Assembly (NCBI GenBank): GCA_004173235.1
Contig: SEAC01000031.1
Coordinates: forward strand, 1 to 64,000
Length of the DNA: 64,000 bases
Direction: 5' to 3'
DNA from: Chitinophagaceae bacterium
GTDB taxonomy: Bacteria; Bacteroidota; Bacteroidia; Chitinophagales; Chitinophagaceae
In this document: positions 1,992-59,133 of the stretch, piece by piece
Numbering within the stretch: position 1 is the first letter of the stretch
Layout of the letters: every line of letters starts with the position of its first letter
Made by a program: the position numbers and the translations under genes
Notes under the pieces: model-generated
Told to the model about the DNA's origin: nothing
Seen by the model: the letters and a program-made list of their open reading frames with translations, nothing else
Databases searched by the model: none

Positions 1992-2001
1992 GTAGAAATA
2001 C
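1992..2001 (+). repeat. GTAGAAATAC 10-mer, intergenic copy
   Basis: One exact copy of the 10-mer that recurs throughout the window. It lies between the divergent 1549-1911 and 2058-5054 genes, followed three bases later by TTTTG. Confidence 0.8.
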
Positions 2002-2057
2002 CAATTTTGCAGTAGGCAGGCTGTTGCACCGTTATACTACCTTTATCGCAAGCCGCT

Positions 2058-5054: not shown

Positions 5055-6697
5055 AGTGGATCCCGACCATACTTGTATTACTACTTTTCGCTGCAAGGTC
5101 CGGCGCACAGGTGAATGCGCTGAATGGCAATTTCCAGATATCGTACTCGGATGTGGCAACGAACGAGGACCTGCAGGTGAGTCGCTCGTTCAACTCACTG
5201 ACGGTTACCACGGGCTACTTTGGCCTTGGGTGGAGCAGCAACCTCGAAACGCGTCTTGTGCCCCTCCCCGACGGAACGGTGGGCATTGAGTGGTGGGGCG
5301 GGGTTTCGCGCGACATCGCGCCGGCGGCACGCCTCGATAAAGACGCGCACTATGCGATGGTGCGTGCCGTAGTTGCGGCCGAGATCGCCGAAGGAAAGCT
5401 CGCCAATATTCCTGCCGAGATCCTTCGCAGAAAAGGCGAGCTCCAGACAGACGACAACCAATTGTACACGAGGTACCTGAACCAGGTTGCAAAAGGCGGG
5501 ATCAAACAGCGCGTGGCTGCACCTCGCAGCCGGCAAAGCTGGCGCATCGATACCAACCAGGAATTGGAGTGGGATGGCAAACGCTACAGGCACCGCACCT
5601 GGAACACGTATTACTATTTCGATAGCGCCGGCCGCCTCACTCAGGTGCAGGAGCCCGCAGCACACATGGAACTGCGCTACCATGGCAACGCGCTCGACCG
5701 CATCATCCTCGACAAACACGCCGTTTGCTCCGTGAAGATGGATACGGCAGGCAGGATCACCTCCATCACTATGGAAGACAGCGGGCAGGTGAAGAAAGCA
5801 GTTTACCGCTACGATACCGCCCAACGCCTGATGTACTCCTGCGACATCGACAGCAATCAGTACGTACATGCCTACGATGCGGTGACGAACATGACGGAAA
5901 TACGCTATACCGATTCCACGCGCATGCTGATCGAATACGACCCGGCAACCTTCCGCGTCACACGCCTCACCCGGCGCAATGGCACGAGCCAGCAGTTCGA
6001 ATACATTTCATTCTACAACGAGTACGGCGAAAACGACCCGAATCACTACGGCAGCCGCATCACTTCCTTCGATAGCCTCGGAAAGCGAAGCTTCGGCAAA
6101 TACCAGGAATGGCAACACCGCACGCTTCCCGATGGGAGCGACTACCTGTACCGGATCATCAACCGGTCGGACACGTCCTTCTCCGACAACATCTATGGAC
6201 CCAACGTGGGGAACGTGATCTACCGCAAGCTTAATGAAGCCGAAGCCTGGGCCGAGTACGACGCCAAACGACGCTGCGTATACCTGCGGATGAACGATTC
6301 TGTATTTCGGGTGCAGTACAGGCTGGATGAACAGCCCGGGCGCTTCTGGGCCATCGATTCGTTGCGGCGCGATACCGTTGCATACCAGTATTTCTACAAT
6401 AAGAACGGGCAGCTCGCATCGGTGCTGCGCGGAAAGGAACGCTTTGTATTGGAGGCGGCGCCTTCCGATTCCGTGAAAGTGATCCGAAGGGAGCAAACGC
6501 GCTGGCGCATCACCTACGCAAAAGGAGTGGCGGTGCGCGCAAGCTCGCCAGCATGGCCCGATCTCGATCTGAATACCGATGCTTCCGATCCGAAGCGCCG
6601 GCAGGCGCAGGAAGAAGCACGCCGATTTGCCGAAGCCGTTGAGCCCAGGCTGATCCCGCACGAGTGGATATGGGAGCGTTTAGGAAAGAAGGGATAG
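5051..6697 (+). CDS. Secreted RHS/YD-repeat-type protein coupled to the caspase-like gene
   Basis: A 548-residue protein with a signal peptide (MKWIPTILVLLLFAARSGAQ). The N-terminal part after cleavage (VNALNGNFQISYSD..., FGLGWSSNLE) resembles the start of RHS/wall-associated proteins, and several YD-like units follow, such as YYFDSAGRLTQV and YRYDTAQRLMYS. It is short for an RHS protein and shows no RHS core end motif or C-terminal toxin. Its start overlaps the stop of the caspase-like gene. The 3' end overlaps the convergent GyrI-like gene by 18 bp. One copy of the 10-mer lies inside it (6388-6397, reverse). Family call moderate; function unknown. Confidence 0.75.
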   Translation: MKWIPTILVLLLFAARSGAQVNALNGNFQISYSDVATNEDLQVSRSFNSLTVTTGYFGLGWSSNLETRLVPLPDGTVGIEWWGGVSRDIAPAARLDKDAHYAMVRAVVAAEIAEGKLANIPAEILRRKGELQTDDNQLYTRYLNQVAKGGIKQRVAAPRSRQSWRIDTNQELEWDGKRYRHRTWNTYYYFDSAGRLTQVQEPAAHMELRYHGNALDRIILDKHAVCSVKMDTAGRITSITMEDSGQVKKAVYRYDTAQRLMYSCDIDSNQYVHAYDAVTNMTEIRYTDSTRMLIEYDPATFRVTRLTRRNGTSQQFEYISFYNEYGENDPNHYGSRITSFDSLGKRSFGKYQEWQHRTLPDGSDYLYRIINRSDTSFSDNIYGPNVGNVIYRKLNEAEAWAEYDAKRRCVYLRMNDSVFRVQYRLDEQPGRFWAIDSLRRDTVAYQYFYNKNGQLASVLRGKERFVLEAAPSDSVKVIRREQTRWRITYAKGVAVRASSPAWPDLDLNTDASDPKRRQAQEEARRFAEAVEPRLIPHEWIWERLGKKG

Positions 6698-7183
6698 CGC
6701 CGGCCGGATAGGGATCCAGATCTCTTCTTCCGACTGTGCATCTTCGCGGCGGTACTTATCGCCCAGCAGCTCGAAGTGCGGCCGGTCGTCGAGCTCGTAG
6801 CGCGAGGCGGGAAGCCACACACCGTAGATATACTGGAAGGCCGCTGCTGCTTCGCTGGAGGCGCCGCGGAAGTCGAACACCGCATACGCGCCTGCAGACA
6901 AAACAAAGGGCTCCATGCCTTCGGGAAGGTTGTCGAAATCGCGAACCTCGATCAAAGCCCATTTCACGAACGTGCGGGTGGGGTCGAAATCACGGAAGAA
7001 ATTTGCATCCGGATATACCTGCAGGCTGTAAAGATGATCGCTCACGGAATTTTTGAAATGCCTTCGCCTGGGCATGAACGTGGTCCAAAGCTCGACGGTG
7101 CGGTTGCGTGCATACGACATCTCCAGCTGCCGGCCAGCCAGCAGTTTTTCTTCCATGCTTGTTATGCGTGGCCCACTGATCAT
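6680..7183 (-). CDS. GyrI-like / effector-binding-domain protein
   Basis: A 167-residue soluble protein resembling the GyrI-like (SOUL-type effector-binding) fold found alone or behind AraC/MerR regulators: the stretch F-V-K-W-A-L-I-E-V, the P-E-G-M-E-P-F hinge and the FQYIYGVWLPASRYELDDRPHFE end are typical of that family. No DNA-binding domain is attached. I start at the ATG at 7183 (MISGPRITSMEEK), which overlaps the murF-alr TGA; the upstream extension is basic and lies inside murF-alr. Small-molecule binding is inferred from family, not shown. Confidence 0.75.
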   Translation of the reverse strand: MISGPRITSMEEKLLAGRQLEMSYARNRTVELWTTFMPRRRHFKNSVSDHLYSLQVYPDANFFRDFDPTRTFVKWALIEVRDFDNLPEGMEPFVLSAGAYAVFDFRGASSEAAAAFQYIYGVWLPASRYELDDRPHFELLGDKYRREDAQSEEEIWIPIRPALSLLS

Positions 7184-9615
7184 TCCTGGAAATATACGCG
7201 CTTTACGCGCTGACTTACGCCGGTCATCACTTCGTACGGTATGGTTTCCATCCACTGCGCCAGTTGCTGCACGGGCAGCGGCTGACCAAATACAACCACC
7301 TCATCGCCTTCGCGCACACCAGGAACGTGGGTCACGTCTATCATCGTCATATCCATGCACACCGTGCCGATCACGGGAGCAAGGTGGCCGCCCACGCTCA
7401 TCTTGCCTACCCCATAACCGAGCCTGCGGCTATAGCCATCGGCATAACCGATGCGTACGGTAGCGATCAGCGATGCTTCTTTCACCACACCACGACGATT
7501 GTAGCTTACCGTATCTCCCGCTTCCAGTTGCTTCAACTGGGCGATGGTGGTGCGAAGCGTAGCCACAGCCTGTAATTCCAGCTGCTTCGTTTCGATCTCC
7601 ACTCCGTACATCCCGATGCCGAGGCGCACGAGGTCGAACTGCAGGTCGGGATGGCGGATGATGGCGGCCGAATTGGACAGGTGCCTCAGGAAACGATAAG
7701 GCAATGCTGCTTCTAGAATGCCCGACATCTCGCGAAAGCGCGCCGCCTGAGCCGCCGTGAATTCATCCTGCGCCGGGTCTTCGCTGGCAGCCAGGTGGCT
7801 GAATACAGATTGCACCCGCACCCAGCCCGTTTGTTCCAGGTGGCGGGCAAGCGCCTGTATTTCTACGGATGAAAAACCAAGACGGTTCATACCGGTCTCC
7901 AGCTCCACATGCACGGGCCATGCTTCCATTCCTTCGCGCTGCAGGTAACGCTCAAACTCCTGCAGCATGGCAAATGAGTAGAGCACGGGCTGCAGTTTCC
8001 ATTCCACAAGCGCATCAAACGATGAAGCATCGGCATTCATCACCATGATAGGAAGTGAAATGCCGGCCTGGCGCAGCGTCACGCCCTCATCGGCATAGGC
8101 AACACCCAGGTAGTCGGCGCGGTTGAATTGCAGCACCGATGCAACTTCCGAAGACCCGCTTCCATACGAAAACGCTTTGACCATCGCCATGATCTTCGTC
8201 TCGGCACGCAGCAACGAGCGGTATTGCTTCAGGTTATGTGCCAGCGCGTTGAGGTTGATCTCGAGCACCGTCTGGTGCACGCGCGTTTCGAGTGCGGCCA
8301 CGATCCGCTCGAAGCGGAAGGCACGCGCACCTTTCACCAGGATGGTCTCTTCGTGAAATTGTGCGGGATGTATCTGCTCGAGGAACGCCTCGGTGGTAGC
8401 ATAGTGCTGCACCGGTATATGTGCAGGAAGCGCCAGGTGACGCGTGATGTCGCGACCAATGAGCACAGCCTTCGTCACGCCCGCGCCGTCGATGGCTGCA
8501 GCCACCTGCGGGTAGAAGCGGTCGGGTGCCGAGCCCGATTCGGCAAAGTCGGACAGGATCACCGTTCGGGGCTGCCCGGTTTGTTGTTGCGCCATGAAGT
8601 TGAGCGCAAGCTGTAGCGACGTGAGGTCGGCACTGTAAGCATCGTTGATGATGGTGCACCCGCCGCCGCCGTGCTTCAATTGCAGGCGCATGTCTACCGG
8701 TTGCAATCCCGCCAGCCGCTCGTTGATGGTGTCCACCGAATAACCAAGATAAAGCAGCACGCAAAAGCAGGTGAGCGCATTGGATACCGAGGCCTCGTCG
8801 GCGAAGGGTATCCGTATTTCTACGGGCAGATCGCGGTAGGTTGCCTTTACGACTGTTACCGCGCCGCGCTGCACATGCAGCACCTGCAGGCTTGCACCCG
8901 ACTCGGGGCCCCAGCTGATATGATTTGACAACAAGCCAGTCCATGGCTCCGGACCAACAACGACCTGTGCGCCCTCGAAGAGCCGTCCCTTTTCGCTACG
9001 TTTTTGCTCTTTGTCCGCAAATCCTTCGTCGTGTGCCGAGCCAATGTTGGTAAGCACGCCGATCGTGGGTTGGATCATGCGTGCAAGACGGGGCATTTCG
9101 CCTGCCTGCGAGATACCCGCTTCGATGAGGGCCAGGGTGTGCTCGGCGCGCAGCTGCCACACGCTCAGCGCCACCCCGATCTGCGAATTGTAGCTGCGCG
9201 GGCTGCGCACGATACGATGTTCGGGCTCGAGCAACTGGTGCAGCCATTCCTTGACGATCGTTTTGCCATTGGAGCCCGTGATGCCGATCACCGGCAGTGT
9301 GAATTGGCTGCGGTGCCAGGCGGCAAGCGTTTGCAATGCCAGGAGCGCATCCGTTACATAAAGGAAAGAAGCGCCCGGGAATGCATCCACGGGAGGATGC
9401 TGGCTGACCACAAATGCACGTACGCCCTTTCGCCAGGCATCATCGATATACCGATGGCCATCACTGCGGGGCGTTACCAATGCAAAGAAGAGAGAGCTGT
9501 CGGGGAAAGTAACTGCGCGGCTGTCGTGCAACAGGTGCGCGATGGAGCGATCGGGGTCGCCTTCCTGCAAAACGGATGCGCCCACAACGCCGGCGATGCT
9601 GCTAATGCTGTACAC
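7180..9615 (-). CDS. murF-alr: Bifunctional MurF ligase / alanine racemase
   Basis: An 811-residue fusion common in Bacteroidetes. Residues about 1-445 are UDP-N-acetylmuramoyl-tripeptide:D-Ala-D-Ala ligase with the ATP-binding loop GITGSNGKT (111-119). Residues about 450-811 are a PLP-dependent alanine racemase with the cofactor Lys in M-V-K-A-F-S-Y-G and the catalytic Tyr region RIGYADGYSRRLG. The fusion couples D-alanine production to its use in peptidoglycan precursor synthesis in the cytoplasm. Translation starts at GTG (complement of 9613-9615). A TACCTTCA box lies only five bases upstream, so the leader may be very short. Two copies of the 10-mer lie within the gene (7857 and 8814, both sense, encoding V-E-I). 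Confidence 0.95.
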   Translation of the reverse strand: MYSISSIAGVVGASVLQEGDPDRSIAHLLHDSRAVTFPDSSLFFALVTPRSDGHRYIDDAWRKGVRAFVVSQHPPVDAFPGASFLYVTDALLALQTLAAWHRSQFTLPVIGITGSNGKTIVKEWLHQLLEPEHRIVRSPRSYNSQIGVALSVWQLRAEHTLALIEAGISQAGEMPRLARMIQPTIGVLTNIGSAHDEGFADKEQKRSEKGRLFEGAQVVVGPEPWTGLLSNHISWGPESGASLQVLHVQRGAVTVVKATYRDLPVEIRIPFADEASVSNALTCFCVLLYLGYSVDTINERLAGLQPVDMRLQLKHGGGGCTIINDAYSADLTSLQLALNFMAQQQTGQPRTVILSDFAESGSAPDRFYPQVAAAIDGAGVTKAVLIGRDITRHLALPAHIPVQHYATTEAFLEQIHPAQFHEETILVKGARAFRFERIVAALETRVHQTVLEINLNALAHNLKQYRSLLRAETKIMAMVKAFSYGSGSSEVASVLQFNRADYLGVAYADEGVTLRQAGISLPIMVMNADASSFDALVEWKLQPVLYSFAMLQEFERYLQREGMEAWPVHVELETGMNRLGFSSVEIQALARHLEQTGWVRVQSVFSHLAASEDPAQDEFTAAQAARFREMSGILEAALPYRFLRHLSNSAAIIRHPDLQFDLVRLGIGMYGVEIETKQLELQAVATLRTTIAQLKQLEAGDTVSYNRRGVVKEASLIATVRIGYADGYSRRLGYGVGKMSVGGHLAPVIGTVCMDMTMIDVTHVPGVREGDEVVVFGQPLPVQQLAQWMETIPYEVMTGVSQRVKRVYFQE

Positions 9616-10623: not shown

Positions 10624-12333
10624 CTAAGATACGGAGGTTGCATACCGGCGGCGGCGGATTTGCTGGTAAGCCACGCCGAACAATATGAGCAGCAACACCG
10701 GCACCACGATGTTGATCGCCTGCCAGGTTGTTTTGCCATCTTTCGTGCGCCGCGGGTCGAGGAGGCGCAGCGTGAACTCCTTGCTCCGCGTTTGCAGAAT
10801 GTCGGAAGGGTTGACGAGGTACTCAAGGCTGTTCATAAAGAACTCCTTATTGGCATAGGTATACCGCGTAAAAGGGTTGACGCCCATCGGGAGCGGCCCC
10901 GTGGAAGCACTAAACTGGTTGAGGGCAAGATCGCCGTCGGCCGCCACAATGATCTTCGTTTCAGCCGTTCCCTGCGGGTAAAACTCGTAGCGCTGCGCTT
11001 TAAACGAATCGGCAACAGCGCGCGGAAGTCGTCCGGCATAGAGCGAACGGAAGGCGCCTTCCATCAGGTAGGCCACCGGCACGTTCTTCCGCTTGAAGAG
11101 CTTCTCGTCGGGAGCGATCTGGAGGAATTCGAAGTCGATCTTCGCGGGCGAACCCAGCACACGTGCGTTGGCGGATGATTGTAGTAATACGGTCTTCCGG
11201 ATGCCCGCCGCTTCCACCGTATCCATACTGGTGGGGAAGAAGGCGCGCACGCCGTCAAGGTTTTTGCTGATGGGGTGCTGCGTGCCGTCGAGCACGGGGA
11301 AGAAGGGCCAGTTGACGATGCGCCGCTGCCCGTTGTTGTTGCTCACCTGTGGCAGCTGGTCGCTCTGCATATCCTGAACAAGGTCGGGGTTGATGCGCAC
11401 GCCCCAGTTGAAAAAGAGATCTTCGAGCTGCAACCCGCGGTCGAAGGCGATGAACCCGCCGCTATTGTAAAGGCTATCGAACTCAGCATACACGTTGTCT
11501 ACAAGGAAAAAGATCTTGCCGCCATGCGTGGCGTACTGATCGAGTTTGAGCTTGTCTTCCGTAGTGAACGGACGGGTGGGTTTCATGATCACCACTGCGT
11601 TGATCTCGGTGGGAATGTAAGGAACCTCGCGGATGTTGAGCGTGTCGGCGAAATAGTTCTCGCGTAGCGACGTGAATGCGTCGTTGATGTTGTAGCCCCA
11701 TGCTTCCCCGTTGCCCAGAAGGTAGGCCACGAGCGGCTTTTCTTTCGCACTTACTTTTTCGATCGCATTCGCAAACTTGTACTCGATCGAAGCTTCAATG
11801 TTGTTGTACAATTTCTGCAGCGATTCTGCGTCCGTGCCGAACGATCGCTGCCCTTCGAGCAGATTCACAGGGTACCGACGATCGCCCTGGTACACGATCG
11901 CACCGTGAACGAGCGACACGATCTGAAGGTTGTCCCCCACCTTTTCCGGAGCCTGGATGGCAGCCGGCGCGAGCCCGTAGTTGTCTTTTAATGAATCCAG
12001 CAAAATGCGTGATTCCGTTGAATCGCCCGCGAAGGGGTCGATGAAGCGATACTGGATCTTCGGTCCGCCATTCTCACGCGCTTCGTCGAGGAAGTCTGCC
12101 AGTGTATTCTTGAATTTCCGCGCAAACGAAGGCAGGTCTTTGCCCGTAACGTACACGTCGATGTTGACGGTGCTGTCGAGGCCGTTTAGCAGGCGCTGCG
12201 TGGGCTTGCTCAAAGAATAGCGGTGTTCGGCAGTGAGGTCGAAGCGAGCGTGGAGCAGCGCAGCAACCACGTTGATGGCTACAAGGGCAACGAGCGCAAG
12301 GATGGTGGCGCCGCCTCGGTTTCGTTTGTTCAT
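10624..12333 (-). CDS. gldG: Gliding motility ABC transporter substrate-binding-like protein GldG
   Basis: A 569-residue protein with an N-terminal membrane segment (about 8-28), a large extracytoplasmic domain with the conserved S-L-S-K-P-T-Q-R-L region and a C-terminal membrane helix (VPVLLLILFGVAYQ) before a basic tail. This architecture matches GldG, which works with the GldF permease and GldA ATPase in gliding motility and envelope biogenesis. Its start overlaps the gldF stop (ATGA). gldA is not next to it; it lies elsewhere, as in many Bacteroidetes. A one-mismatch variant of the 10-mer (GTAGTAATAC, 11181) encodes V-L-L with codons GTA TTA CTA that are unusual for this gene. Confidence 0.92.
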   Translation of the reverse strand: MNKRNRGGATILALVALVAINVVAALLHARFDLTAEHRYSLSKPTQRLLNGLDSTVNIDVYVTGKDLPSFARKFKNTLADFLDEARENGGPKIQYRFIDPFAGDSTESRILLDSLKDNYGLAPAAIQAPEKVGDNLQIVSLVHGAIVYQGDRRYPVNLLEGQRSFGTDAESLQKLYNNIEASIEYKFANAIEKVSAKEKPLVAYLLGNGEAWGYNINDAFTSLRENYFADTLNIREVPYIPTEINAVVIMKPTRPFTTEDKLKLDQYATHGGKIFFLVDNVYAEFDSLYNSGGFIAFDRGLQLEDLFFNWGVRINPDLVQDMQSDQLPQVSNNNGQRRIVNWPFFPVLDGTQHPISKNLDGVRAFFPTSMDTVEAAGIRKTVLLQSSANARVLGSPAKIDFEFLQIAPDEKLFKRKNVPVAYLMEGAFRSLYAGRLPRAVADSFKAQRYEFYPQGTAETKIIVAADGDLALNQFSASTGPLPMGVNPFTRYTYANKEFFMNSLEYLVNPSDILQTRSKEFTLRLLDPRRTKDGKTTWQAINIVVPVLLLILFGVAYQQIRRRRYATSVS

Positions 12334-13055
12334 GCGCGTTGCACCAGGGTTTGACGGGTGAGAAAAAGAAAGAAAAAGGCAAGTGAAGCGAAATAGACCA
12401 GGTCGCGGGTGTCGAGCACGCCGCGGCTGATGCTGCGGTAGTGCGCGTCTATGCCGATGAGGTCGAGGTAGAAGTCGGCGCCGCCGCGAAAGGGCGCCAG
12501 GCCGCTCAGGGCGTGGAAGCCGTAATACAGAAAGAGGCAGGCGATGAGGCTCAGTATAAAGGCGATGACCGCGTTGTTGGTGCGGCTGCTGATGAAGATG
12601 CTGATGGCTGTGAAGACGGCTGCAAGAAAGAAGAGCCCGGCATACGAACCGGCTGCTGCGCCCCCATCAATGCCGGTACCCGAAGAGGCGAGGTAGTTGA
12701 TGGTGAAAAAGTAAACCACGGTAGGCAGGAGCGCAATGATCACGATGATGAGCGCACCCCAGAATTTCCCGGCAACGATCTGGCCTGCTGTAAGCGGTCG
12801 CGTGCGCAGGATCTCGAAGGTTCCGCCGCGGTATTCGTCGGCAAAGGAGCGCATGCAGATGGCAGGTATCAGAAAAAGCAGGATCCACGGTGCAAGCTCG
12901 AAATACGCGTCCAGCGTCGCGTAGCCGCTGTCGAGAATGTTGTTCGGAAACACGAAAAGCACCAACCCGTTCACCAGTAGAAATACAATAATGGCAATGA
13001 CGCCGGTAAGACTACCGAAAAACTGGCCGAGCTCCTTTTTACAGATGGACCACAT
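12330..13055 (-). CDS. gldF: Gliding motility ABC transporter permease GldF
   Basis: A 241-residue ABC-2-type permease with six hydrophobic segments and the conserved S-F-A-D-E-Y-R-G-G-T-F-E-I-L-R-T-R-P cytoplasmic motif after the second helix. It pairs with GldG. I start at the ATG at 13055 (MWSICKKELGQFFGSLTG), the usual N-terminus of the family; the longer frame is translated intergenic repeat. A copy of the 10-mer is present at 12977 (antisense; encodes V-F-L). The upstream gap to 13175 contains octamer-type repeats and the isc terminator, so gldF begins a transcription unit. Confidence 0.92.
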   Translation of the reverse strand: MWSICKKELGQFFGSLTGVIAIIVFLLVNGLVLFVFPNNILDSGYATLDAYFELAPWILLFLIPAICMRSFADEYRGGTFEILRTRPLTAGQIVAGKFWGALIIVIIALLPTVVYFFTINYLASSGTGIDGGAAAGSYAGLFFLAAVFTAISIFISSRTNNAVIAFILSLIACLFLYYGFHALSGLAPFRGGADFYLDLIGIDAHYRSISRGVLDTRDLVYFASLAFFFLFLTRQTLVQRA

Positions 13056-14113: not shown

Positions 14114-14135
14114 GATCGTGTTTTTTTGTTTTTTA

Positions 14136-14181: not shown

Positions 14182-14187
14182 TTTACG

Positions 14188-17139: not shown

Positions 17140-17171
17140 GTATTTCTACTACTTTTTATGGTAGAAATACT
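17139..17171. repeat. Inverted pair of the GTAGAAATAC 10-mer
   Basis: AGTATTTCTAC (17139-17149) and GTAGAAATACT (17161-17171) form perfect 11-bp arms around an 11-base T-rich spacer, in an AT-rich island (about 17100-17270) that contrasts with the GC-rich surroundings. This is the only place in the window where two copies of the 10-mer face each other. Confidence 0.9.
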
Positions 17172-20563: not shown

Positions 20564-21052
20564 CTACTTATTCTTCTTCCGCCCCACTTGCTCGTTGAGA
20601 AGCATACGTATCTCGTGCAGATCGTCGCTGCTGGCGAAACCTTTCTTGGGTACGAGAAAAAAAGAACGGGGATCGAAGTAGAAATACAGGAATCCGGGAG
20701 TTTCCGAAAAAGAGCTCAGTTTTTTCCATGCGAAGAAACGCTCCCCGCGCGGGTTGGCGAGGCGAAAGCCATCTTCGAAGAACTCCATCGTGAACGCGTC
20801 GCGGAAGGTTTCGTTGCGCCGGTATACAATGAACGGCAGCAGCCACCAGAAGACCAGCATCAGCGAAAACCAGAGAAAGGAGCCCAGCAAAAATGCAAGC
20901 GGAAGCACTTTGTTGAAGTAAGACAGCACCGCCGATGTCAGCGCTAATACATTCACGAGGATGATCATCAGGCGGATCTCGCGGCGGCTGAGAAAATGAT
21001 AGCGCAGGCCCTGTATGACGGCGCTGCGTTCATAAATGATCGGAATCTTCAT
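20564..21052 (-). CDS. YcxB-like membrane protein
   Basis: A 162-residue protein with two transmembrane segments (about 29-45 and 48-72) followed by a soluble domain matching the YcxB-like C-terminal pattern: FEDGFRLANPRGERFFAWKKLSSFSETPGFLYFYF...FFLVPKKGF. This domain has a PH-like fold; its role is unknown. The start overlaps the phosphatase stop (ATGA), so it is translated after it from one mRNA. A copy of the 10-mer (20678) lies in the part encoding L-Y-F-Y-F. Confidence 0.8.
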   Translation of the reverse strand: MKIPIIYERSAVIQGLRYHFLSRREIRLMIILVNVLALTSAVLSYFNKVLPLAFLLGSFLWFSLMLVFWWLLPFIVYRRNETFRDAFTMEFFEDGFRLANPRGERFFAWKKLSSFSETPGFLYFYFDPRSFFLVPKKGFASSDDLHEIRMLLNEQVGRKKNK

Positions 21053-22413
21053 CGGGCTTTCAGTTCGGTTTCACTAACGCTCCACGTGGCCAGCACCTTG
21101 CCTGAAATGTCGAGGAACTCGGTCTGCAGCCGGCGTGCACCCTTTGGCCCTGCAACAGTAACACGCGTGTAATTCTGCACTTCCACCAATGTGCCGCTTA
21201 CGCGTGCGGCATTGTCTTTCTCATCGCCCGACACACGGGAGATACCCGATGTCAGCGGCGAATTGGTTACATCGAACAACGGGTACGTGCCTGCGCGCTC
21301 GTAGCGGATCACTTCGCTGTGGTGGCGGTCTCCGGTGAACAACAGCAGGCCCGTAATCTTTTCCGCAGCGAGGAACTGCATCAATTCATTAAACTCGATC
21401 GGATAATCCTGCAGGCACTCCGCGCGCGCCTTCGGGTTGAGCGTTTGGTTGCCGGTGGCAATGATCTTGAAGGTGGCGGTGCTGTTCACCAACGCGTTCT
21501 TGAGCCATTCCATCTGCTGCGGTCCCCACATGCGCTTGGCAGCATTGGGAGTGCCATCCACGAGTTCGTCCATGTTGTTGGCACTGCGAAACCAGCGGTC
21601 GTCCATCATAAAGATGTCCACGTCGCCATACGACATTTTCGTGTAGATGCCCTGCTCGTTTTCCCCGGCCGAATGATTGGGCCAGTAGTCCAGGAAGATG
21701 CGGCGGCTCTCTTCTTTGAGTACAAAGCTTTTGTCGCCGTCGTTGGGGCCGAAGTCGTGATCGTCCCAGATGGCATAGTGCGGCATTGCTTTGAGCAGTG
21801 GTTGCAGCACGGGTTGCGCGCGGTCGCGGCGGGCGCGGTAACGGAGACCAGTAGCCGAAAAGAAATCCACTTCGCGGTAATACCAGTTGTCGCCCAGCCA
21901 GAGCATGAACGAAGCCTTCTCTTTTGCCATCGCCAGAAAGATGGACGAATCGCCGCCGTAAGGTGTGCCCGGACGATCGTACACCGGCTCATTGAAATAG
22001 GCGCAGGAGCCCGTGAGGAAAGAGAAGTCGGGCGCGGGCTTGCGCCATTGCCAGAGGTCTTTGGTGGTGAAGGTGCCGATCGCCGCTTCTTTGCCATCAA
22101 GCAGGATGCGGTAATGGTACGTCTTTGCGGGTTGAAGATCAGGGATGCGCAGGGCAATTGGATTGGAAGCGTTCCCCAGCGGGCCTTTGTAGGAGATCCA
22201 TCCCATGTTGTTGTGCACCACCCTGGCCGGCGGCTTCGGGATGCCGATCGTGGGATCGAACAATTGCAGTCGGACGGATTTCGTCCGCGGCCCCACTTCC
22301 ACCCAGATCACGGCGTCCCGTAGTTCTACGGGACCGAGCATGGGGCCGGAAACGAGTTGGGATTGGGCCGAAAGACCAACGAAGGCAAGCAAAAAAAGAA
22401 GAAGGCGCTTCAT
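21049..22413 (-). CDS. PhoD-like alkaline phosphatase / metallophosphatase, exported
   Basis: A 454-residue protein with a signal peptide (MKRLLLFLLAFVGLSAQSQ). Metal-binding motifs of the PhoD-like family are present: GSCAYFNEP, MLWLGDNWYYRE, YAIWDDHDFGPNDGD and FTGDRHHSE. These enzymes hydrolyse phosphomonoesters or diesters using Ca/Fe or related metals outside the cytoplasm. It begins a two-gene operon with the YcxB-like gene, driven by a textbook promoter. A GTAGTTCTAC copy of the 10-mer variant (22320) encodes V-E-L near the N-terminus. Confidence 0.92.
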   Translation of the reverse strand: MKRLLLFLLAFVGLSAQSQLVSGPMLGPVELRDAVIWVEVGPRTKSVRLQLFDPTIGIPKPPARVVHNNMGWISYKGPLGNASNPIALRIPDLQPAKTYHYRILLDGKEAAIGTFTTKDLWQWRKPAPDFSFLTGSCAYFNEPVYDRPGTPYGGDSSIFLAMAKEKASFMLWLGDNWYYREVDFFSATGLRYRARRDRAQPVLQPLLKAMPHYAIWDDHDFGPNDGDKSFVLKEESRRIFLDYWPNHSAGENEQGIYTKMSYGDVDIFMMDDRWFRSANNMDELVDGTPNAAKRMWGPQQMEWLKNALVNSTATFKIIATGNQTLNPKARAECLQDYPIEFNELMQFLAAEKITGLLLFTGDRHHSEVIRYERAGTYPLFDVTNSPLTSGISRVSGDEKDNAARVSGTLVEVQNYTRVTVAGPKGARRLQTEFLDISGKVLATWSVSETELKAR

Positions 22414-43050: not shown

Positions 43051-45507
43051 CTACCGCGCGGCCTTCCCGAACAGCCTCCGCGCCACCACACCACTTACTA
43101 TCGTAACTAGTGCGACGATGGAAATAGAAGAAGCAGGCATCAGGATGGCCGCCACCATCGGTTTCATGGCGGCCTGCACGGCGATGGAAACGCCCACGAT
43201 GTTGTAGCAAATGGAGAGCACGAACGAGGCGGTTACAACGGCTTTTCCGCGGCGGGCATACACGAGGAAGCGGTCGAGGAGGGAGACGCCGGAGGCATCG
43301 AGGATGGCATCGCAGGCGGGCGTAAACTGGCTCGTGTTTTCGGTGACGGCAATGCCGGCGTCCGCCTGCAGCAGCGCACCCGCGTCGTTGAGGCCATCAC
43401 CCAGCATCAGCACACGGGCACCGCCCAATTGAAGGTTTTTGATGTATTCAAGCTTGCCCTGCGGCGTTTGGTTGAAGCACAGCGCAACGTCGGGGCCGAG
43501 AAGGGTGCGAAGGTTGTCGCGCTCGGCGTCGTTGTCGCCCGAAAGCAGGTGGAGCGCATAGCCGCGCGCCTGCAGGCCTTTGAGCATTTCGGCCAGACCC
43601 GCGCGGTAGCGGTTGCGCACCCCGTAGCATCCGCGCACAACGCCTTCAACCGAAACCCACACTTCCGTAGCCGTGTTCGCCTCTTCCGCATCGCGGCCAT
43701 GCACAAAGGAGAAAGAGCCGATGCGCATCCGGCGCAGCGATACGATGGCTTCCAACCCTTTGCCGCTATGCTCCGTAAAACCCGCGAGCGGCAATGGCTG
43801 CGCATCCTGCCGAAGCAGCTCCTTTTGCAGCAGCCGGCTCAGTGGGTGCGCGGATTCTTTCACGACGCTATACACCGCGTTGCGCTCGGCGTTGCCCAGC
43901 GGCGTGCCAATGAATTCAATGGCGGCCTCTTCGGTGTACGTGAGCGTGCCGGTCTTGTCGAGCACTACCGTATTAATACGGGCCATCGCTTCGATCACCG
44001 ACGCATTCTTCAGGTAAAGCCTGCGCTGCCCGAAGTGGCGCAGCATGTTGCCGAAGGTGAAGGTGGCCGACAGCAGCAGCGAGCAGGGACAGGCTACGAT
44101 GAGTGCTGCCGACACGGCGGGGAGTATGTTGGCTGGATTGACGATGGCCCAGTAGATGCCTGCGGTTGCAGCCACGGTAAAGAGCGCCAGCGTGAAGTAA
44201 CGACTCCACGGATGAATGAAGCTTTGCACGGCATTCTTGCGGCCCGCCGTGGCGTTGTTGTTCCAAAGCTGCGTGATGTAGCTCTGCGAAACGGTCTTCA
44301 CCACTTCGAGTTCGATGCGGCCGCCGGTTTGCCTTGCGCCAGCATACACCAGCTCGCCGGAACGCTTGTGCAGCGGCGTGTTTTCGCCCGAAACGAAGCT
44401 GTAATCAATATAGCCTTCGCCCTTTTTCAGCACTGCATCGGCAGGCACCATCTCGTTGTGGCGCACAATGATTCGGTGGCCGGGAAGGAGTTGCGCAATG
44501 GTGGTGGGCTGCTCTGCGCCGCCTTCGGAAAGACGCGTAACACCGAGGGGGAAGTAGGCTTTGTAGTCGCGGTCGAAAGAGAAGGAGTCGTAGGTCTTGT
44601 TTTGAAACCACCGCCCGATGAGCATGAAGAACACGATACCGCTCATGGAATCGAAATACCCCGAGCCGGTGCCGCTCACCACTTCGTACACACTGCGCGA
44701 AAAGGTGATAAGGATGGACAGTGCGATGGGTGCGTCTATGTTGAGCCAGCGCTGGCGCAGGCCCTTGTATGCCGATACGAAGAACTCATTGGCACTATAG
44801 AAGAATACCGGAAGCGCGAGTAGTAGTCCTGCCCACGAAAAAACCTGCCTGAGGGTTTCCTGCTCAATGTGGCCGCCCGCGAAGTAGTCGGGGAAGGCGA
44901 GCATCATGATGTTGGAAAAGCAGAAGCCTGCAACGCCGATCTTGTACCACTGGCGGCGGTCGGCCTTCTTGCCTCTTTTCGTTTCTGCGTCGGTGAGGCG
45001 GATCTCGGGCTCATAGCCCACGAACGACAGTAGTTCTACAACCTGACGAAGCGAAACCAGCGCGGGATCGAAAGCGAGGAAGACCTCTTTGCGGCCGAAG
45101 TTGGTTTTGCTTTGCAAGATGCCGGGGCGGATGGCGTGGAGGTTTTCGAGGAGCCAGATGCAGGAAGCGCAGTGCATGGTGGGCAGGTGAAAGAGCACGT
45201 GGCTTTGCCGGCCGTCGGTGAAGCGAAGGAGCTTTTGCTGCACATCGGCGTTGTCGAGGTAGGCGAAGCGGTCGGAGGCGAACTGGCCGCGCACCTTGAT
45301 GCCGGGCATTTTTTCGAGCTCGTAGTAATTGCAAAGGCCGTTCTCCTGCAGCAGGCTGTACACGAAGCGGCATCCCTCGCAGCAAAACGCGTGGTCGTGC
45401 TGCACGATGCTGCCGTCGCAGCTTTCGCCGCAGTGGTAGCATTGCGCGGCCACCGGGGGTGCGGCCGGGGTGCGGGGCTTTTTGGGAGGAGCTTCGGTGA
45501 GGGACAT
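43051..45507 (-). CDS. ccoI: Copper-type P1B ATPase CcoI/FixI
   Basis: An 818-residue heavy-metal ATPase. N-terminal Cys-rich domain (CYHCGESCDG..., CCEGC), heavy-metal-associated domain with HCASCIW, eight membrane segments, the copper-site motif CPCS in VACPCSLLLSA, the phosphorylation Asp in DKTGTLT, and the ATP-binding motif LSGDNDAERD, then MLGDGLNDAGAL. It supplies copper for cbb3 oxidase. First gene of the leftward cco set. A GTAGTTCTAC copy (45030) encodes V-V-E-L-L. Confidence 0.95.
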   Translation of the reverse strand: MSLTEAPPKKPRTPAAPPVAAQCYHCGESCDGSIVQHDHAFCCEGCRFVYSLLQENGLCNYYELEKMPGIKVRGQFASDRFAYLDNADVQQKLLRFTDGRQSHVLFHLPTMHCASCIWLLENLHAIRPGILQSKTNFGRKEVFLAFDPALVSLRQVVELLSFVGYEPEIRLTDAETKRGKKADRRQWYKIGVAGFCFSNIMMLAFPDYFAGGHIEQETLRQVFSWAGLLLALPVFFYSANEFFVSAYKGLRQRWLNIDAPIALSILITFSRSVYEVVSGTGSGYFDSMSGIVFFMLIGRWFQNKTYDSFSFDRDYKAYFPLGVTRLSEGGAEQPTTIAQLLPGHRIIVRHNEMVPADAVLKKGEGYIDYSFVSGENTPLHKRSGELVYAGARQTGGRIELEVVKTVSQSYITQLWNNNATAGRKNAVQSFIHPWSRYFTLALFTVAATAGIYWAIVNPANILPAVSAALIVACPCSLLLSATFTFGNMLRHFGQRRLYLKNASVIEAMARINTVVLDKTGTLTYTEEAAIEFIGTPLGNAERNAVYSVVKESAHPLSRLLQKELLRQDAQPLPLAGFTEHSGKGLEAIVSLRRMRIGSFSFVHGRDAEEANTATEVWVSVEGVVRGCYGVRNRYRAGLAEMLKGLQARGYALHLLSGDNDAERDNLRTLLGPDVALCFNQTPQGKLEYIKNLQLGGARVLMLGDGLNDAGALLQADAGIAVTENTSQFTPACDAILDASGVSLLDRFLVYARRGKAVVTASFVLSICYNIVGVSIAVQAAMKPMVAAILMPASSISIVALVTIVSGVVARRLFGKAAR

Positions 45508-49070: not shown

Positions 49071-49130
49071 GTATTTCTACTGTAAAGTAAATGCGTTCAC
49101 GATTCACGGCTCACGATTCACGGCTCACTT
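49071..49130. repeat. 10-mer copy followed by a heptamer array
   Basis: GTATTTCTAC at 49071-49080 (intergenic, between convergent genes), then TCACGAT/TCACGGC units of period 7 (49097-49128) that end at the stop codon region of the 49132 gene. Confidence 0.8.
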
Positions 49131-50533: not shown

Positions 50534-53035
50534 GTGAAAGGCATTTATACTCTTGTTCTCGCGATGGCTTCCCTGGGCGCAGTGGCGCAAAGCGGCCCGC
50601 AGGCACACCTTACTACCGGCACCGTTGCAACCGATGAAATCGCCATTACCGGCACCGTGCACACCAGCGACGGGCAGCCCGCGCCCTACGTGACCATCCA
50701 GATCAGCGGCACGCGGCAGTACACCACTTCCGACGAAAACGGAAACTTCACGTTCCGCTCGCTTCCTTCGGGCCATTATACGCTGCTCATTTCGATGACG
50801 GGAAGCACGCCCATCGAGAAGACCGTAGAAGTACGGAAGGATGCGCCCGCTTCGCTCGACGTGATCCTCGCCATCAACGAAAAGCAACTTACCGAGGTGA
50901 TCATCAGCAGCGGCCGCTCGCTCAACGATCGTACGCCCATCATCGGCAAGGCGCCTATTCATCCCATGGATCTGCCACAGGCCGTGACGGTGCTCGGTGC
51001 GCCCGTGCTCCGCGAGCAGCAGGTGCAGCGACTTTCCGATGCCATCCGCAACGTGAACGGCGTATATATGACCACGGCGCGCGGCAACGTGCAGGAAAGC
51101 TTCGCGGCACGCGGCTATGCGTTTGGTGCACAGAATCTGTTCAAGAACGGCGCACGCATCAACAGCGGGGCGATGCCCGAGATGGGGTCGCTGGAACGTG
51201 TGGAAGTGCTCAAGGGATCTTCGGCCATCCTGTTTGGACAGGTAGCGCCTGGTGGCGTGGTCAATCTCGTAACGAAGCAGCCCAAGTTCAGCAACGGCGG
51301 CGAGGTATCGTTCCGCGCGGGATCGTACAACCTGTACAAACCTGCCTTCGATGTATACGGACCGCTTTCGAAACGCGTAGCCTACCGCGTGAACGGCTCG
51401 TTTGAAAGCACGGACTCGTATCGCGAGACGGTGCACTCCGATCGCTACTATATCAATCCTTCGTTCCTGTTCAAGTTGGGCACGAAGTCCGAACTGCTGT
51501 TCGAGGCCGACTACCTCAAGCACGACTTCACGCCCGACTTCGGCATCGGCACCATCGGTGCAGCGGGCACTGCAACGGGAACTACCATCACACCTACTGG
51601 CCGGGGAACGTTCTTCGGAACGCCCTGGCAATTCAACCATACGCAGCAAAGCACCGCGGGCATCACGCTGAAGCATCGCTTCAACGAAAGCTGGAGCATC
51701 AACAGCTCGGTGAGCTACCAGTTTTACAAGCGCGATTATTTTTCTGTTGAACGTGTGCAGGCCGACACCGCCGCCAACTGGGGCCGCACCCTGGGCCGCG
51801 TGCTTACCGAGGAGCAGTACTACACCGGCCAGGTGAATCTCACCGGAAAGGTGAAGACGGGCAGCGTGGAGCATACGATCCTCGCAGGCATCGATGCGGA
51901 TCATTATACCACCGACGCCTTCACCTATACCTTCCAGCGCCGCACGGTAAATGGCCGCCTGCTCGCTGCCGGCGTATACGACAGCATCAACCTGATTAAC
52001 CCCGGCAAGTTTGCACCATCTACGGATATGCCGCTGTATACCAAGGCAACGAAGACCACCGCGCCCATCGACCGCTTTGGCGTGTATGTGCAGGACCTCC
52101 TGCAACTTTCCGACAAGTTGAATCTCCTCGCCGGCGTGCGCGTTTCATACGTAGTGACGGAAGGCGTGCGCACGCGAACGCTCGCGAAAGATTCGCTTTC
52201 GGTTGCAGCCACGCGTGTAGATCGCGCGTTCTCGCCGCGACTCGGGGTCGTTTACAAACCCACTTCGGGCACATCGCTGTTTGCTTCGTATGCCAACTCG
52301 TTTACCGTGAACACCGGCCAGGATGTGAATGGCGAAGCGCTGAAGCCTTCCAACATCGACCAGTTTGAAGTGGGCATCAAGAATGAGCTTTTTGGCGGAC
52401 GTCTTTCTGCAAATGTTACCGGCTACCGCATCATCAACAACAATCTCGCGCAAACCGCGCCCTACCTGCGTGACGGCGTTACACCGAACAACAACAGCAA
52501 CATCAAGCTGCTTTCCGGCCAAACGATCTCCGACGGCGTGGAAGTGGATCTTTCCGCATCGCCCGTTGCCGGACTCGACCTGCGCGCCGGATACAGCTAC
52601 AACTACATGCGTTATACGCAAAACGATACAACCGCAGGTGCGTTCAAAACCGGTGAGCGGCTGGTGAACAACCCTTCGCATACTGCGAATGCCAGCGCCT
52701 TCTTTACATTCCGCAGCGGCCGCATTAAAGGTTTGAAAGTAGGTGCTACCTACGTGTACATCGGCGAGCGCAATGCCGGCTGGAACAGCGATGTGGTGAA
52801 AGTGACCGATAACAACGGTGTGCCGAAGGCGCCCTTCATCTGGCGGGAAAGAATGTTCACTGTGCGCGGCTACAGCACGCTCGATCTTTCTGCCGGCTAC
52901 AGCTGGAATCACTTCTCGGTTATGGGCAAAGTGAGCAACGTCACCAACACTCTGAACTGGTACGTGCACGAGAACTACAGCGTCAACCCGATTCCGCCGA
53001 CGCAGTTTTTGGCGACGGTGGCGTATAAATTCTAA
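50534..53035 (+). CDS. TonB-dependent siderophore receptor
   Basis: About 833 residues from a GTG start (MKGIYTLVLAMASLGAVAQ, a signal peptide), which I prefer to a TTG at 50489. Domains: carboxypeptidase-regulatory-like fold (about 40-120), TonB box/plug (about 125-260) with DLPQAVTVLGAPVLREQQVQRLSDAIRNVNGVY and the ferric-siderophore signature ERVEVLKGSSAILFGQVAPGGVVNLVTKQP, and a C-terminal barrel ending FLATVAYKF. The plug pattern places it in the siderophore (FhuA/FpvA-like) group. Followed by a PepSY membrane protein that often pairs with such receptors. Confidence 0.93.
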   Translation: MKGIYTLVLAMASLGAVAQSGPQAHLTTGTVATDEIAITGTVHTSDGQPAPYVTIQISGTRQYTTSDENGNFTFRSLPSGHYTLLISMTGSTPIEKTVEVRKDAPASLDVILAINEKQLTEVIISSGRSLNDRTPIIGKAPIHPMDLPQAVTVLGAPVLREQQVQRLSDAIRNVNGVYMTTARGNVQESFAARGYAFGAQNLFKNGARINSGAMPEMGSLERVEVLKGSSAILFGQVAPGGVVNLVTKQPKFSNGGEVSFRAGSYNLYKPAFDVYGPLSKRVAYRVNGSFESTDSYRETVHSDRYYINPSFLFKLGTKSELLFEADYLKHDFTPDFGIGTIGAAGTATGTTITPTGRGTFFGTPWQFNHTQQSTAGITLKHRFNESWSINSSVSYQFYKRDYFSVERVQADTAANWGRTLGRVLTEEQYYTGQVNLTGKVKTGSVEHTILAGIDADHYTTDAFTYTFQRRTVNGRLLAAGVYDSINLINPGKFAPSTDMPLYTKATKTTAPIDRFGVYVQDLLQLSDKLNLLAGVRVSYVVTEGVRTRTLAKDSLSVAATRVDRAFSPRLGVVYKPTSGTSLFASYANSFTVNTGQDVNGEALKPSNIDQFEVGIKNELFGGRLSANVTGYRIINNNLAQTAPYLRDGVTPNNNSNIKLLSGQTISDGVEVDLSASPVAGLDLRAGYSYNYMRYTQNDTTAGAFKTGERLVNNPSHTANASAFFTFRSGRIKGLKVGATYVYIGERNAGWNSDVVKVTDNNGVPKAPFIWRERMFTVRGYSTLDLSAGYSWNHFSVMGKVSNVTNTLNWYVHENYSVNPIPPTQFLATVAYKF

Positions 53036-55463: not shown

Positions 55464-55465
55464 CC

Positions 55466-56917: not shown

Positions 56918-58144
56918 ATGAACAACCACTACTTTAAGAATATCGATAACTTTTTTGTTGCCGGCATCAATTACAAGAAGTCCGACGCCTCCGTGCGCGG
57001 CCTTTTTGCCATCGGCAGCGAGCAATACAACCGGATCCTCGAAACGGCCGCCCGCGAAGGCGTAGGCGAACTATTCGTACTTTCCACCTGCAACCGCACC
57101 GAGATCTACGGTGTTGCATATTGTCCCCACCAGCTGGTGCGCCTGCTTTGCCGCGAAACGGCAGGCTCCATCGAAACCTTTCTGAGCTCGGCTTACATTA
57201 AGCAGGGGCTCGAAGCCGTGGAGCACGTTTACAGCGTTGCATCGGGCCTCGATTCGCAAATCCTCGGCGACTACGAGATCGTGGGCCAGCTGAAAACCGC
57301 GGTGAAATTTGCAAAAGAAGGCGGCTTCGTAGGCGCGTTCACCGAGCGTCTCATCAACAGCGTGCTGCAGGCTTCCAAGAACGTAAAGAACAATACCGAA
57401 CTGAGCGGGGGCACCGTATCTACCGCTTTCGCCGCCGTACAGTACATCCGCACACACGTGCCGCAGGTGAGCGAAAAGAAAATACTCCTCGTAGGCACCG
57501 GAAAGATCGGGCGCAATACCTGTAAGAACCTCGTTGACTACCTCTGCACGAAAAACATCACGCTCATCAACCGCACTTCCGAAAAAGCACAGGAGCTGGC
57601 TTCCGAGCTGGGCCTGCGCTGGGCTCCTGTAGAAATACTGGAATCCGAACTGCGCTCCGCCGATGTGATCATCGTGGCCACCAACGCGCAGCAAAAGACC
57701 ATCCTTCGCGAGCACCTCGAAGGGGCGGGCGAGAAACTGATCATCGACCTGTCGATTCCTTATAATGTTGCCGACGATGCACAAACGCTTCCCAATGTGC
57801 GGATGGTGAACGTAGACGAGCTTTCGAAGTTGAAAGACGAAACGTTCCGCATGCGCCAGGCCGAAGTGCCCAAGGCTCGCGCCATCATCGCCGAAGGAAT
57901 GCAGGAATTTGAAGAATGGTGCGATATGCGCCGCCATGTGCCGCTGTTAAAAGACCTCAAGGCGAAGCTCCGTACGCTATACGAACACCCCGAGTGTCCG
58001 CACATGCGCGAGCAACACAACAAACTGCTCGACGTGCAGATTCAGCGCGTGCTCAACGAAACCGCCGGCCGTATCAAAGAGCGCAACGAGCGCGGTTGCC
58101 AGTATATTGCCGCATTGAATGAATTTATAAGCGTACGTAATTAA
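56918..58144 (+). CDS. hemA: Glutamyl-tRNA reductase
   Basis: A 408-residue NADPH enzyme making glutamate-1-semialdehyde from Glu-tRNA, first step of the C5 heme pathway. The nucleophilic Cys is in VLSTCNRTE (C58), the NADPH fold in ILLVGTGKIGRNTCKNL, and the C-terminal dimer helix is present. ATG 56918 (MNNHYFKNIDNFFVAG) is chosen since the promoter box precedes it. Its TAA overlaps the hemC ATG by one base. A 10-mer copy (57629) encodes V-E-I. Confidence 0.97.
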   Translation: MNNHYFKNIDNFFVAGINYKKSDASVRGLFAIGSEQYNRILETAAREGVGELFVLSTCNRTEIYGVAYCPHQLVRLLCRETAGSIETFLSSAYIKQGLEAVEHVYSVASGLDSQILGDYEIVGQLKTAVKFAKEGGFVGAFTERLINSVLQASKNVKNNTELSGGTVSTAFAAVQYIRTHVPQVSEKKILLVGTGKIGRNTCKNLVDYLCTKNITLINRTSEKAQELASELGLRWAPVEILESELRSADVIIVATNAQQKTILREHLEGAGEKLIIDLSIPYNVADDAQTLPNVRMVNVDELSKLKDETFRMRQAEVPKARAIIAEGMQEFEEWCDMRRHVPLLKDLKAKLRTLYEHPECPHMREQHNKLLDVQIQRVLNETAGRIKERNERGCQYIAALNEFISVRN

Positions 58145-59133
58145 TGTCCCGCACACTCCGCATCGGCACCCGCGACAGCCAGCTTGCCGTTTGGCAGGCT
58201 ACCCTCGTTCAAGACCTGCTTCAAACAGAAGGCATAGCCTCCGAACTCGTATACATCAAGAGTGAAGGCGACATCGATACCGTCACGCCGCTGTATGCGC
58301 TGGGCGTACAGGGCGTCTTCACGCGCAGCCTCGATGCTGCTTTGCTCAGCAACCGCATCGACATCGCCGTGCACTCGATGAAAGACGTACCTACGCAACT
58401 CGCGCAGGGTATCATTGAAAACGCCGTGCTCGAGCGCGCTTCCACAAAAGATATCCTGGTTTACAAAGACCTGGCCGCGCTTGAACAACTTGGATGGGTC
58501 AATGGTCAATGGTCACTGGTCAATAATGACAGAGCAGCAAATGCATCGCCCGTTCACCATTCACCATTGACGATAGGCACCAGCTCGATTCGGCGTAACG
58601 CGCAGTGGAAGCGGCGCTACCCGAATAGCGTAGTGGAAAACCTGCGCGGCAACGTCAACACGCGGCTGCGCAAGCTTGCTGAAAGCAGCTGGACGGGCGC
58701 CATATTTGCGGCTGCCGGCCTGGAGCGGATCAACCTGCGGCCCGAAACTTCGGTGGAACTGGACTGGATGCTTCCCGCACCGGCACAGGGAGCCATCATG
58801 ATCGTATGCCGTGAAGACGACCAGGAAGCATACGACATGGTGCGCCCGCTCAATCATCCCGAAACGGCACTCTGCGCACGCATCGAGCGACAGTTTCTGC
58901 GTGCACTGATGGGCGGCTGCTCTACACCGATCTCGGCCCTTGCCCGCATGGAATTTGCGCAGGTGGTGTTTGAAGGACATGTGTGCGCACCCGATGGATC
59001 GGACATTGTAGAAATACGGAATACCGTAGATATCGTCGCAGCCGGCAACCTCGGCACCGAAGCCGGTGAGGAACTGCTGAAAGATCCCAAAGCACAACAA
59101 ATCATCCAGTCGATTCGCAATGCCAAAGGCTGA
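58144..59133 (+). CDS. hemC: Hydroxymethylbilane synthase with repeat-derived insert
   Basis: A 329-residue porphobilinogen deaminase joining four porphobilinogens to hydroxymethylbilane. Conserved parts: RIGTRDSQLAVWQA, DIAVHSMKDVPT, GTSSIRRNAQW, NLRGNVNTRLRKL, and the cofactor Cys in LMGGCSTPISA. Between EQLGW and GTSSIRR lies an insert of about 26 residues (VNGQWSLVNNDRAANASPVHHS...) encoded by an inverted heptamer array. Known enzymes have a short loop there. Frame is kept, so the enzyme is probably functional. A 10-mer copy is at 59008. Confidence 0.95.
   Translation: MSRTLRIGTRDSQLAVWQATLVQDLLQTEGIASELVYIKSEGDIDTVTPLYALGVQGVFTRSLDAALLSNRIDIAVHSMKDVPTQLAQGIIENAVLERASTKDILVYKDLAALEQLGWVNGQWSLVNNDRAANASPVHHSPLTIGTSSIRRNAQWKRRYPNSVVENLRGNVNTRLRKLAESSWTGAIFAAAGLERINLRPETSVELDWMLPAPAQGAIMIVCREDDQEAYDMVRPLNHPETALCARIERQFLRALMGGCSTPISALARMEFAQVVFEGHVCAPDGSDIVEIRNTVDIVAAGNLGTEAGEELLKDPKAQQIIQSIRNAKG
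58496..58572. repeat. Inverted heptamer array inside hemC
   Basis: Left arm GTCAATGG, TCAATGG, TCACTGG, TCAATAA (58498-58526); right arm GTTCACC ATTCACC ATTGACG (58552-58572). Same family as the intergenic arrays at 53045 and 55000/55436. The total length keeps the hemC frame open. Confidence 0.9.

Follow-up and report, generated by a model that had tools for sequence, protein, structure and literature searches.

A dispersed 14-bp DNA dyad enriched in four related Chitinophagaceae genomes

Copy number and anatomy of the dyad

A 64-kb stretch of the genome of a Chitinophagaceae bacterium (the whole of which is called the window below) carries many copies of a short DNA word, and the real unit behind them is a 14-bp dyad, YYGTA-N4-TACRR, with an A/T-biased centre. 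Its commonest form is CCGTA-GAAA-TACGG, and the word is represented in duplex form by CCGTAGAAATACGG. Enrichment of this dyad is confined to four related genomes, and the turnover of its sites is high. The initial annotation of the window had described a 10-mer, GTAGAAATAC, with a variant, GTAGAACTAC; the 10-mer is one reading of the longer dyad and not the unit itself, because two more bases are conserved beyond each of its ends.

An exact search of both strands returned all 13 copies of GTAGAAATAC and all 4 of GTAGAACTAC that had been reported for the window, each at the position and on the strand given, and the near variants at 5075, 11181 and 50825 are present as well. Dinucleotide shuffles yield on average 0.03 and 0.01 copies, respectively, and none of 100 shuffles reached the observed counts. 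Over the whole source assembly (G000; 3,761,548 bases in 41 contigs, 92% complete), GTAGAAATAC occurs 161 times on the forward and 162 times on the reverse strand (323 in total), and its reversed control 2 and 1 times (3 in total). A 464-kb sample that includes the window holds 41 copies against 1.36 expected from an order-4 Markov model, so that the count lies far from the Markov expectation and the strong over-representation first claimed for the window holds genome-wide.

The base-by-base analysis covered 1.97 of the 3.76 Mb (~52%), with subsamples of 464 kb (window included), 1.23 Mb and 1.97 Mb, and the remainder was covered by whole-genome counts; expectations came from Markov models, shuffles and our own simple gene caller. 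Many of the statistics below rest on a ten-centre site set, namely GTA-N4-TAC restricted to the ten centres seen most often in the first 464 kb, which was chosen post hoc and from a sample that includes the window, while the counts of GTAGAAATAC and CCGTA-N4-TACGG are independent of it. The set comprises 25 sites in the window, where the size of the family had thus been under-counted, and 436 sites in 1.97 Mb, that is, 2.2 per 10 kb or about 1 per 4.5 kb.

The GTA/TAC core is nearly all-or-none: forms with a single mismatch in GTA or TAC stay at background in the 464-kb sample (0-5 seen vs. 0.1-4.2 expected). The middle four bases are tolerant, with GAAC, TAAA, GATA and other centre variants enriched in the same sample. 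A scan for inverted repeats with 5-base arms and spacers of 0-12 ranked CCGTA-N4-TACGG first in G000 (42 vs. 0.44 expected) and likewise first in G294 (27 vs. 0.43) and G296 (8 vs. 0.08); it was outside the top lists of G306 and G004, and the list of G227, filled by runs of N, was uninformative. In 1.23 Mb, the observed/expected ratio of GTAN4TAC (order-5 expectation) is 0.82, 1.06, 2.68, 5.9 and 6.39 for centres with zero to four A/T, respectively, and ten control NNN-N4-NNN dyads range from 0.65 to 1.18. Among the CCGTA-N4-TACGG sites of the 1.97 Mb, the centre is 73% A/T. A plain restriction or methylation site, one of the roles initially suggested, should be free of preference at its N positions; here the composition of the centre is strongly biased, and GTAN4TAC with zero or one central A/T is not enriched. 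Another suggested role, a polar signal of the Chi type, fits no better and is rejected, together with a KOPS-like motif, because the unit is a dyad and is symmetric between strands genome-wide (161 vs. 162).

The two bases on each side of the core carry 0.66, 0.41, 0.41 and 0.98 bits, CC being favoured before and GG after it; the next two bases carry 0.19 and 0.16 bit on one side only, and little information lies farther out. Because almost none extends beyond two flanking bases per side, the word is not shared merely as homologous coding sequence. Among 114 sites, CC/GG flanks are the most frequent, with 26 cases, followed by the non-complementary TT/GG (11) and CA/GG (10). Since frequent flank pairs are non-complementary and the half-sites vary separately, the arms resemble two protein-contact half-sites rather than the stem of a hairpin.

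Selection, placement and distribution among relatives

In 60 synonymous-codon shuffles of 977 genes, GTAGAAATAC averages 3.1 copies (standard deviation 1.9) against 94 observed, which rejects codon bias as the cause, and CCGTAN4TACGG averages 2.4 against 84. Alignments with congeners at 49 sites show mostly ungapped substitution, with short gaps within or close to several of them; the insertion of a small mobile element is thus rejected as the origin of the copies. The shuffles, the ungapped substitutions and the retention of rare codons agree with the earlier proposal that selection acts on the DNA word itself and not on the protein or on codon usage.

In aligned DNA of G000 and G294, the ten-centre set gives 20 shared, 26 G000-only and 9 G294-only sites. 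Despite this fast turnover, the copies are apparently protected by selection. G294 retains GTAN4TAC at 21 of 50 aligned sites and in 202 of 961 phase-matched nearby windows (P = 0.0013, Fisher's exact test), and codons lying wholly inside sites are kept in 66 of 123 cases, against 42.5 predicted from the same codons elsewhere (z = 5.0). The codon GTA is kept in 10/22 cases inside sites vs. 96/498 elsewhere and CTA in 4/9 vs. 5/76; TAC and GAA codons inside sites show no excess retention (11/16 vs. 0.72 and 6/12 vs. 0.53, respectively). At the G000-only sites, which were chosen for containing a difference so that their substitution rates are suggestive only, synonymous differences amount to 0.49 per codon vs. 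0.33 in the flanks, and non-synonymous differences to 0.21 vs. 0.22.

As first observed in the window, copies lie on both gene strands and in all three codon phases, and intergenic copies occur too. The 1.23-Mb sample holds 244 genic and 35 intergenic sites (37.4 intergenic expected), and the first 464 kb hold 96 and 20 (16.5 intergenic expected), with 44, 24 and 28 genic sites in codon phases 0, 1 and 2 and a roughly flat distribution along genes. An A/T-centred dyad is typical of operators, yet it is very improbable that the sites are operators through which a transcription factor controls many genes, given that genic copies are about proportional to coding length and show that flat distribution. 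An autoregulated reader is rejected as well, since no regulator-like gene lies beside the intergenic sites of the 1.23 Mb: the 18 entries (17 genes) that start within 200 bp of such a site include no DNA-binding regulator, as judged by eye from the first 130 residues. Along the chromosome, the sites of the ten-centre set follow nearly a Poisson distribution, with a mean of 4.49 and a variance of 5.22 per 20-kb bin (88 bins). The larger samples show no surplus of close site pairs, though in contig C14 the initial 80 kb contain 4 gaps shorter than 1 kb vs. 1.2 expected. GC skew tracked gene strand when viewed by eye, and no replichore map was obtained.

It is extremely improbable that the word acts as an RNA or single-strand hairpin with a CCGUA stem and a GAAA tetraloop. 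The palindrome can fold, two copies in G294 and an A/T-rich phage contig use it in this way, and some centres are skewed on the sense strand. However, the sense strand of G000 carries GAAA and TTTC about equally often (14 vs. 15; 10 vs. 18 in G294), frequent flank pairs do not complement each other, and genic stems reach beyond CC..GG in only 9 of 161 cases (G000 and G294 pooled), by which the hairpin is largely rejected, the skews of other centres being noted. A role as terminator is rejected too: of 34 intergenic sites (20 in G000 and 14 in G294), 2 lie in a 9-bp stem with a T-run, both in G294 (C1 45495 and C1 230150). A further copy in G000, at C10:190691, lies within the loop of a terminator-like hairpin.

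Among 18 genomes of the genus, CCGTAN4TACGG occurs 254 times in G000 (reversed control, 7), 240 times in G294 (10), 129 times in G296 (16) and 32 times in G305 (3), where the centres are mixed; G306 has 14 (6), G301 has 10 (11), and the other 12 genomes have 0-6. The counts of GTAGAAATAC are 323, 278 and 140 in G000, G294 and G296, and 2-23 in the other 15 genomes, with 7 in G305. G294 appears to be Flaviaesturariibacter aridisoli, and G227 Cnuella takakiae. No genome besides G000 exceeds 16 CCGTAN4TACGG sites among 294 genomes drawn from the family or 11 among 395 drawn from the phylum, and for the 10-mer no other of 294 family genomes exceeds 42 copies; G294, G296 and G305 were absent from all three draws. 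A phylogeny built from a single gene region (1245 columns) unites the four enriched genomes (support 94/98; 96% of 200 bootstrap trees), and G305 is the earliest branch among them.

The initial annotation knew of no such word for this group, and we found none reported as a motif in the open-licence literature of PubMed Central; its letters do turn up in papers, which among the matches listed are human, viral or similar work as judged from titles and abstract openings. A scan of viral sequences gave at least 120 stretches with the exact 14-mer, and a phage source of the word is rejected, since among the 80 listed 79 have one copy and one contig has three, as terminators. In this A/T-rich phage contig (piece L295), each of the copies of the 14-mer, at 1350, 1820 and 2024, sits in a hairpin resembling a terminator and seems to have no relation to the bacterial word.

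Sites and other repeats in the window

The sites in the window are as follows (coordinates, strand, type and context, with the state at the orthologous place in congeners where given).

1992..2001, +: GTAGAAATAC site (ccGTAGAAATACca), intergenic
5075..5084, -: GTAGTAATAC site, intergenic
6388..6397, -: GTAGAAATAC site, genic
6824..6833, +: GTAGATATAC site, genic; kept in G294
7857..7866, -: GTAGAAATAC site, genic; kept in G294
8814..8823, -: GTAGAAATAC site with CC/GG flanks, genic; kept in G294 and G296
11181..11190, +: GTAGTAATAC site, genic; kept in neither G294 nor G296
12977..12986, +: GTAGAAATAC site, genic; missing at the orthologous place in 12 of 12 aligned congeners
17140..17149, -: GTAGAAATAC site, intergenic; forms an inverted pair with the site at 17161
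17161..17170, +: GTAGAAATAC site, intergenic; partner of the site at 17140 in that pair
20678..20687, +: GTAGAAATAC site, genic; 1-base difference in G294
22320..22329, -: GTAGAACTAC site with CC/GG flanks, genic; not kept in G294
31122..31131, -: GTAGAACTAC site, genic; kept in G294
31866..31875, +: GTAGAAATAC site with CC/GG flanks, genic; not kept in G294
36609..36618, +: GTAGAAATAC site, genic; GTAGTAATAC there in G296, lost in G294
37130..37139, +: GTATAAATAC site, genic; kept in G294
41829..41838, -: GTAGAACTAC site, genic; kept in G294 and G296
43970..43979, no strand (.): GTATTAATAC perfect palindrome with CC/GG flanks, genic; not kept in G294
45030..45039, -: GTAGAACTAC site, genic; kept in neither G294 nor G296
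49071..49080, -: GTAGAAATAC site, intergenic, between convergent genes
50825..50834, +: GTAGAAGTAC site with CC/GG flanks, genic
57629..57638, +: GTAGAAATAC site, genic; kept in neither G294 nor G296
59008..59017, +: GTAGAAATAC site, genic; kept in G294
60995..61004, -: GTACAAATAC site with CC/GG flanks, genic; kept in G294
63778..63787, -: GTACAAATAC site with CC/GG flanks, genic; kept in G294

Other repeats were seen in the genome. The sequence AGAACGCAGAT recurs across the part of G000 that was fetched, often as inverted pairs about 100 bp apart, and is like a small element of the miniature inverted-repeat (MITE) type. Short repeated units form clusters, with AACCCCTCAA at multiples of 8 bp, GCACGGTTACC every 21 bp, AATGGTCAAT, and GAGAACATGAG at multiples of 8 bp. 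The first 119 bases of the window have copies of 98-100% identity on contigs C34, C24 (123 bases) and C4, at or near contig ends, and are probably a repeat that broke the assembly. A small dispersed repeat of 60 bp at 14131-14190 has a copy of about 90% identity in G000 C14 and two overlapping ones in G294 C29.

AGAACGCAGAT pairs in G000: C10:46952(+)/47058(-), C10:57836/57937 and C14:53571/53675
AGAACGCAGAT in the window: 48273, 56580 and 56604
Clusters of short repeated units in the window: 36784-36912, 46254-46359 and 53052-53094
Cluster of short repeated units elsewhere in G000: C14:224565-224645

Possible readers of the word

The explanation we favour, with confidence just short of even, is that the dyad is a 14-bp operator-like site bound by a homodimer, a chromosome-wide nucleoid or chromosome-organising factor, and that the density of sites is selected. 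A homodimeric protein would contact the two GTA/TAC half-sites and would sense the A/T centre by its shape (indirect readout); it would be a sequence-specific factor acting genome-wide, with selection favouring site density over particular positions. We infer, rather than count, such a protein reading the word and acting on the whole chromosome. In operator biology, a dyad with an A/T centre fits a homodimer with indirect readout, and a dyad form, separately varying half-sites and an A/T centre, as in sites of nucleoid-type homodimers, are all found here. The even spread of the sites, their lack of preference for promoters and their turnover suggest that what is selected is density, as would suit either a chromosome-wide role or drive.

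Known systems resemble this picture in part. The sites of MatP (matS), SlmA and Noc are also short dyads read by homodimers that act on the chromosome, and number in the tens with a bias towards origin or terminus, whereas the present sites are several hundred and near Poisson in their spread. The operators of Lrp/AsnC proteins (for example TTGYA-W5-TRCAA) share the five-base half-sites, the A/T-rich centre and a nucleoid-type reader, but have a spacer of 5 instead of 4. Lrp/AsnC is excluded as the reader, since the PF01037 profile has no match in any of the four word-bearing genomes, G000, G294, G296 and G305 (completeness 92, 95, 85 and 84%, respectively); it has 1-3 matches in 11 of the other 14 congeners, with zeros also in G300, G303 and G304 (92%, 79% and 62% complete). 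The loss of Lrp/AsnC was possibly one event on the branch where the word arose, and it may be a coincidence.

Several points weigh against a selected homodimer site. No reader gene was found in the 1.97 of 3.76 Mb that were read, and several hundred sites (436 in 1.97 Mb) each under selection are costly; drive would explain their accumulation more cheaply. Conservation is modest, the retention of GTAN4TAC ranking 8th of 64 NNN-N4-NNN dyads, and in the comparison with G296 it is kept at 4 of 14 aligned sites and in 49 of 276 windows. The G000 samples show no regular spacing of sites and no intergenic or promoter preference. Some centres are skewed on the sense strand, both in G000 (TATC 9 vs. 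GATA 0, TAAC 8 vs. GTTA 2) and in G294 (TTTC 18 vs. GAAA 10, TTTA 11 vs. TAAA 4), part of which arises because GTAG yields a TAG stop in one phase. As for the tree, the base composition of the four enriched genomes, and of four more rows, deviates from the common one; the model ignores such deviation, and the unusual composition that the four enriched genomes share may aid their grouping.

The main rival, which we regard as unlikely though a serious contender, is that a competence or recombination system independent of type IV pili prefers the word and that the word accumulates through repeated replacement by kin DNA that carries it, a drive like that of the DNA uptake sequences (DUS) of Neisseriaceae or the uptake signal sequences (USS) of Pasteurellaceae. 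The population-level signature is like that of uptake words: strand symmetry with over-representation on both strands (161/162 vs. 2/1 in the control), genic and intergenic copies, origin by point mutation, fast turnover and a nearly all-or-none core. DUS and USS likewise have hundreds of copies on both strands, clade-restricted forms and occasional terminators. They are, however, denser than the present word, are not dyads and are read by type IV pili; to our knowledge, no known uptake word is a dyad with a free centre. No full-length type IV pilus or secretion ATPase was found in the 18 genus genomes, of which 15 have short PF00437 matches (at most 82 of 370 positions) and 3 have none; the cut-off is passed in G227 and G301, where short stretches suffice for it, and in 13 of 14 control genomes. 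A classical uptake word therefore fails. A pilus-less system is conceivable because ComEC passes the cut-off in 18 of the 18 genomes, and thus equally in word-free ones. Intergenic sites, moreover, are not enriched in G000, and no report of competence in the clade was found in the portions of open-licence PubMed Central papers retrieved. One study describes uptake words as occasionally forming terminators (PMC1852404), a habit seen in the two G294 sites in terminator-like hairpins with T-runs.

A by-product of methylation is improbable as the explanation. Here, a DNA methyltransferase gained by the clade would lead biased repair or selection around the methylated palindrome to multiply the word without a dedicated binder. 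According to a study that describes three cyanobacteria, new iterated palindromes came with new methyltransferases, and HIP1 and the other highly iterated palindromes (HIPs) are, like the present word, dense and dispersed, with lineage-specific forms and a function not agreed upon (PMC4390886). The dyad is, as a HIP would be, a dispersed palindrome over-represented beyond codon usage. HIP1, however, has 8 bases without a gap and is associated with GATC/CGATCG methylases, whereas the dyad has an A/T-biased centre of 4 bp, and no link between it and a methylase was found; moreover, to a bipartite methylase the bases of the N4 centre should not matter, yet centres with 0-1 A/T are not enriched. 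A regular expression for methylase motifs gave five matches in the 1.97 Mb, not all of which are DNA methylases when inspected by eye. The candidate compared across the genus, a methyltransferase beside a recombinase-like gene in G000 (C12:36729-39269), has no match in the word-bearing G294 and G296 and, beyond G000, only weak matches in G004, G297, G305 and G227, which speaks against it. G000 also has a type I modification gene within a region of lower GC (C10:115346-122241).

Dispersed DNA words have mostly been studied where they are ancient and saturated, and how genomes gain them, whether as uptake tags, HIP1 or chromosome-organisation motifs, is an old question. The gain of the present word seemingly took place inside one genus, with near-zero outgroups, graded ingroups and one named isolate (F. 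aridisoli 17J68-15, from soil). We tentatively suggest, at somewhat less than even confidence, that it is a palindromic address new within this genus and spread to hundreds of sites by point mutation, and that its reader is a newly specialised homodimer. The address would then serve either a sequence-specific nucleoid scaffold that took over once Lrp/AsnC was lost or, as the first tag of its kind for self-DNA, a competence system without pili. If this is true, the graded genomes, with 32, 129, 240 and 254 sites, would show the evolution of a DNA word in progress. An identified reader would give a new class of nucleoid protein or a new system of self-recognition, and would allow selection and drive to be distinguished.

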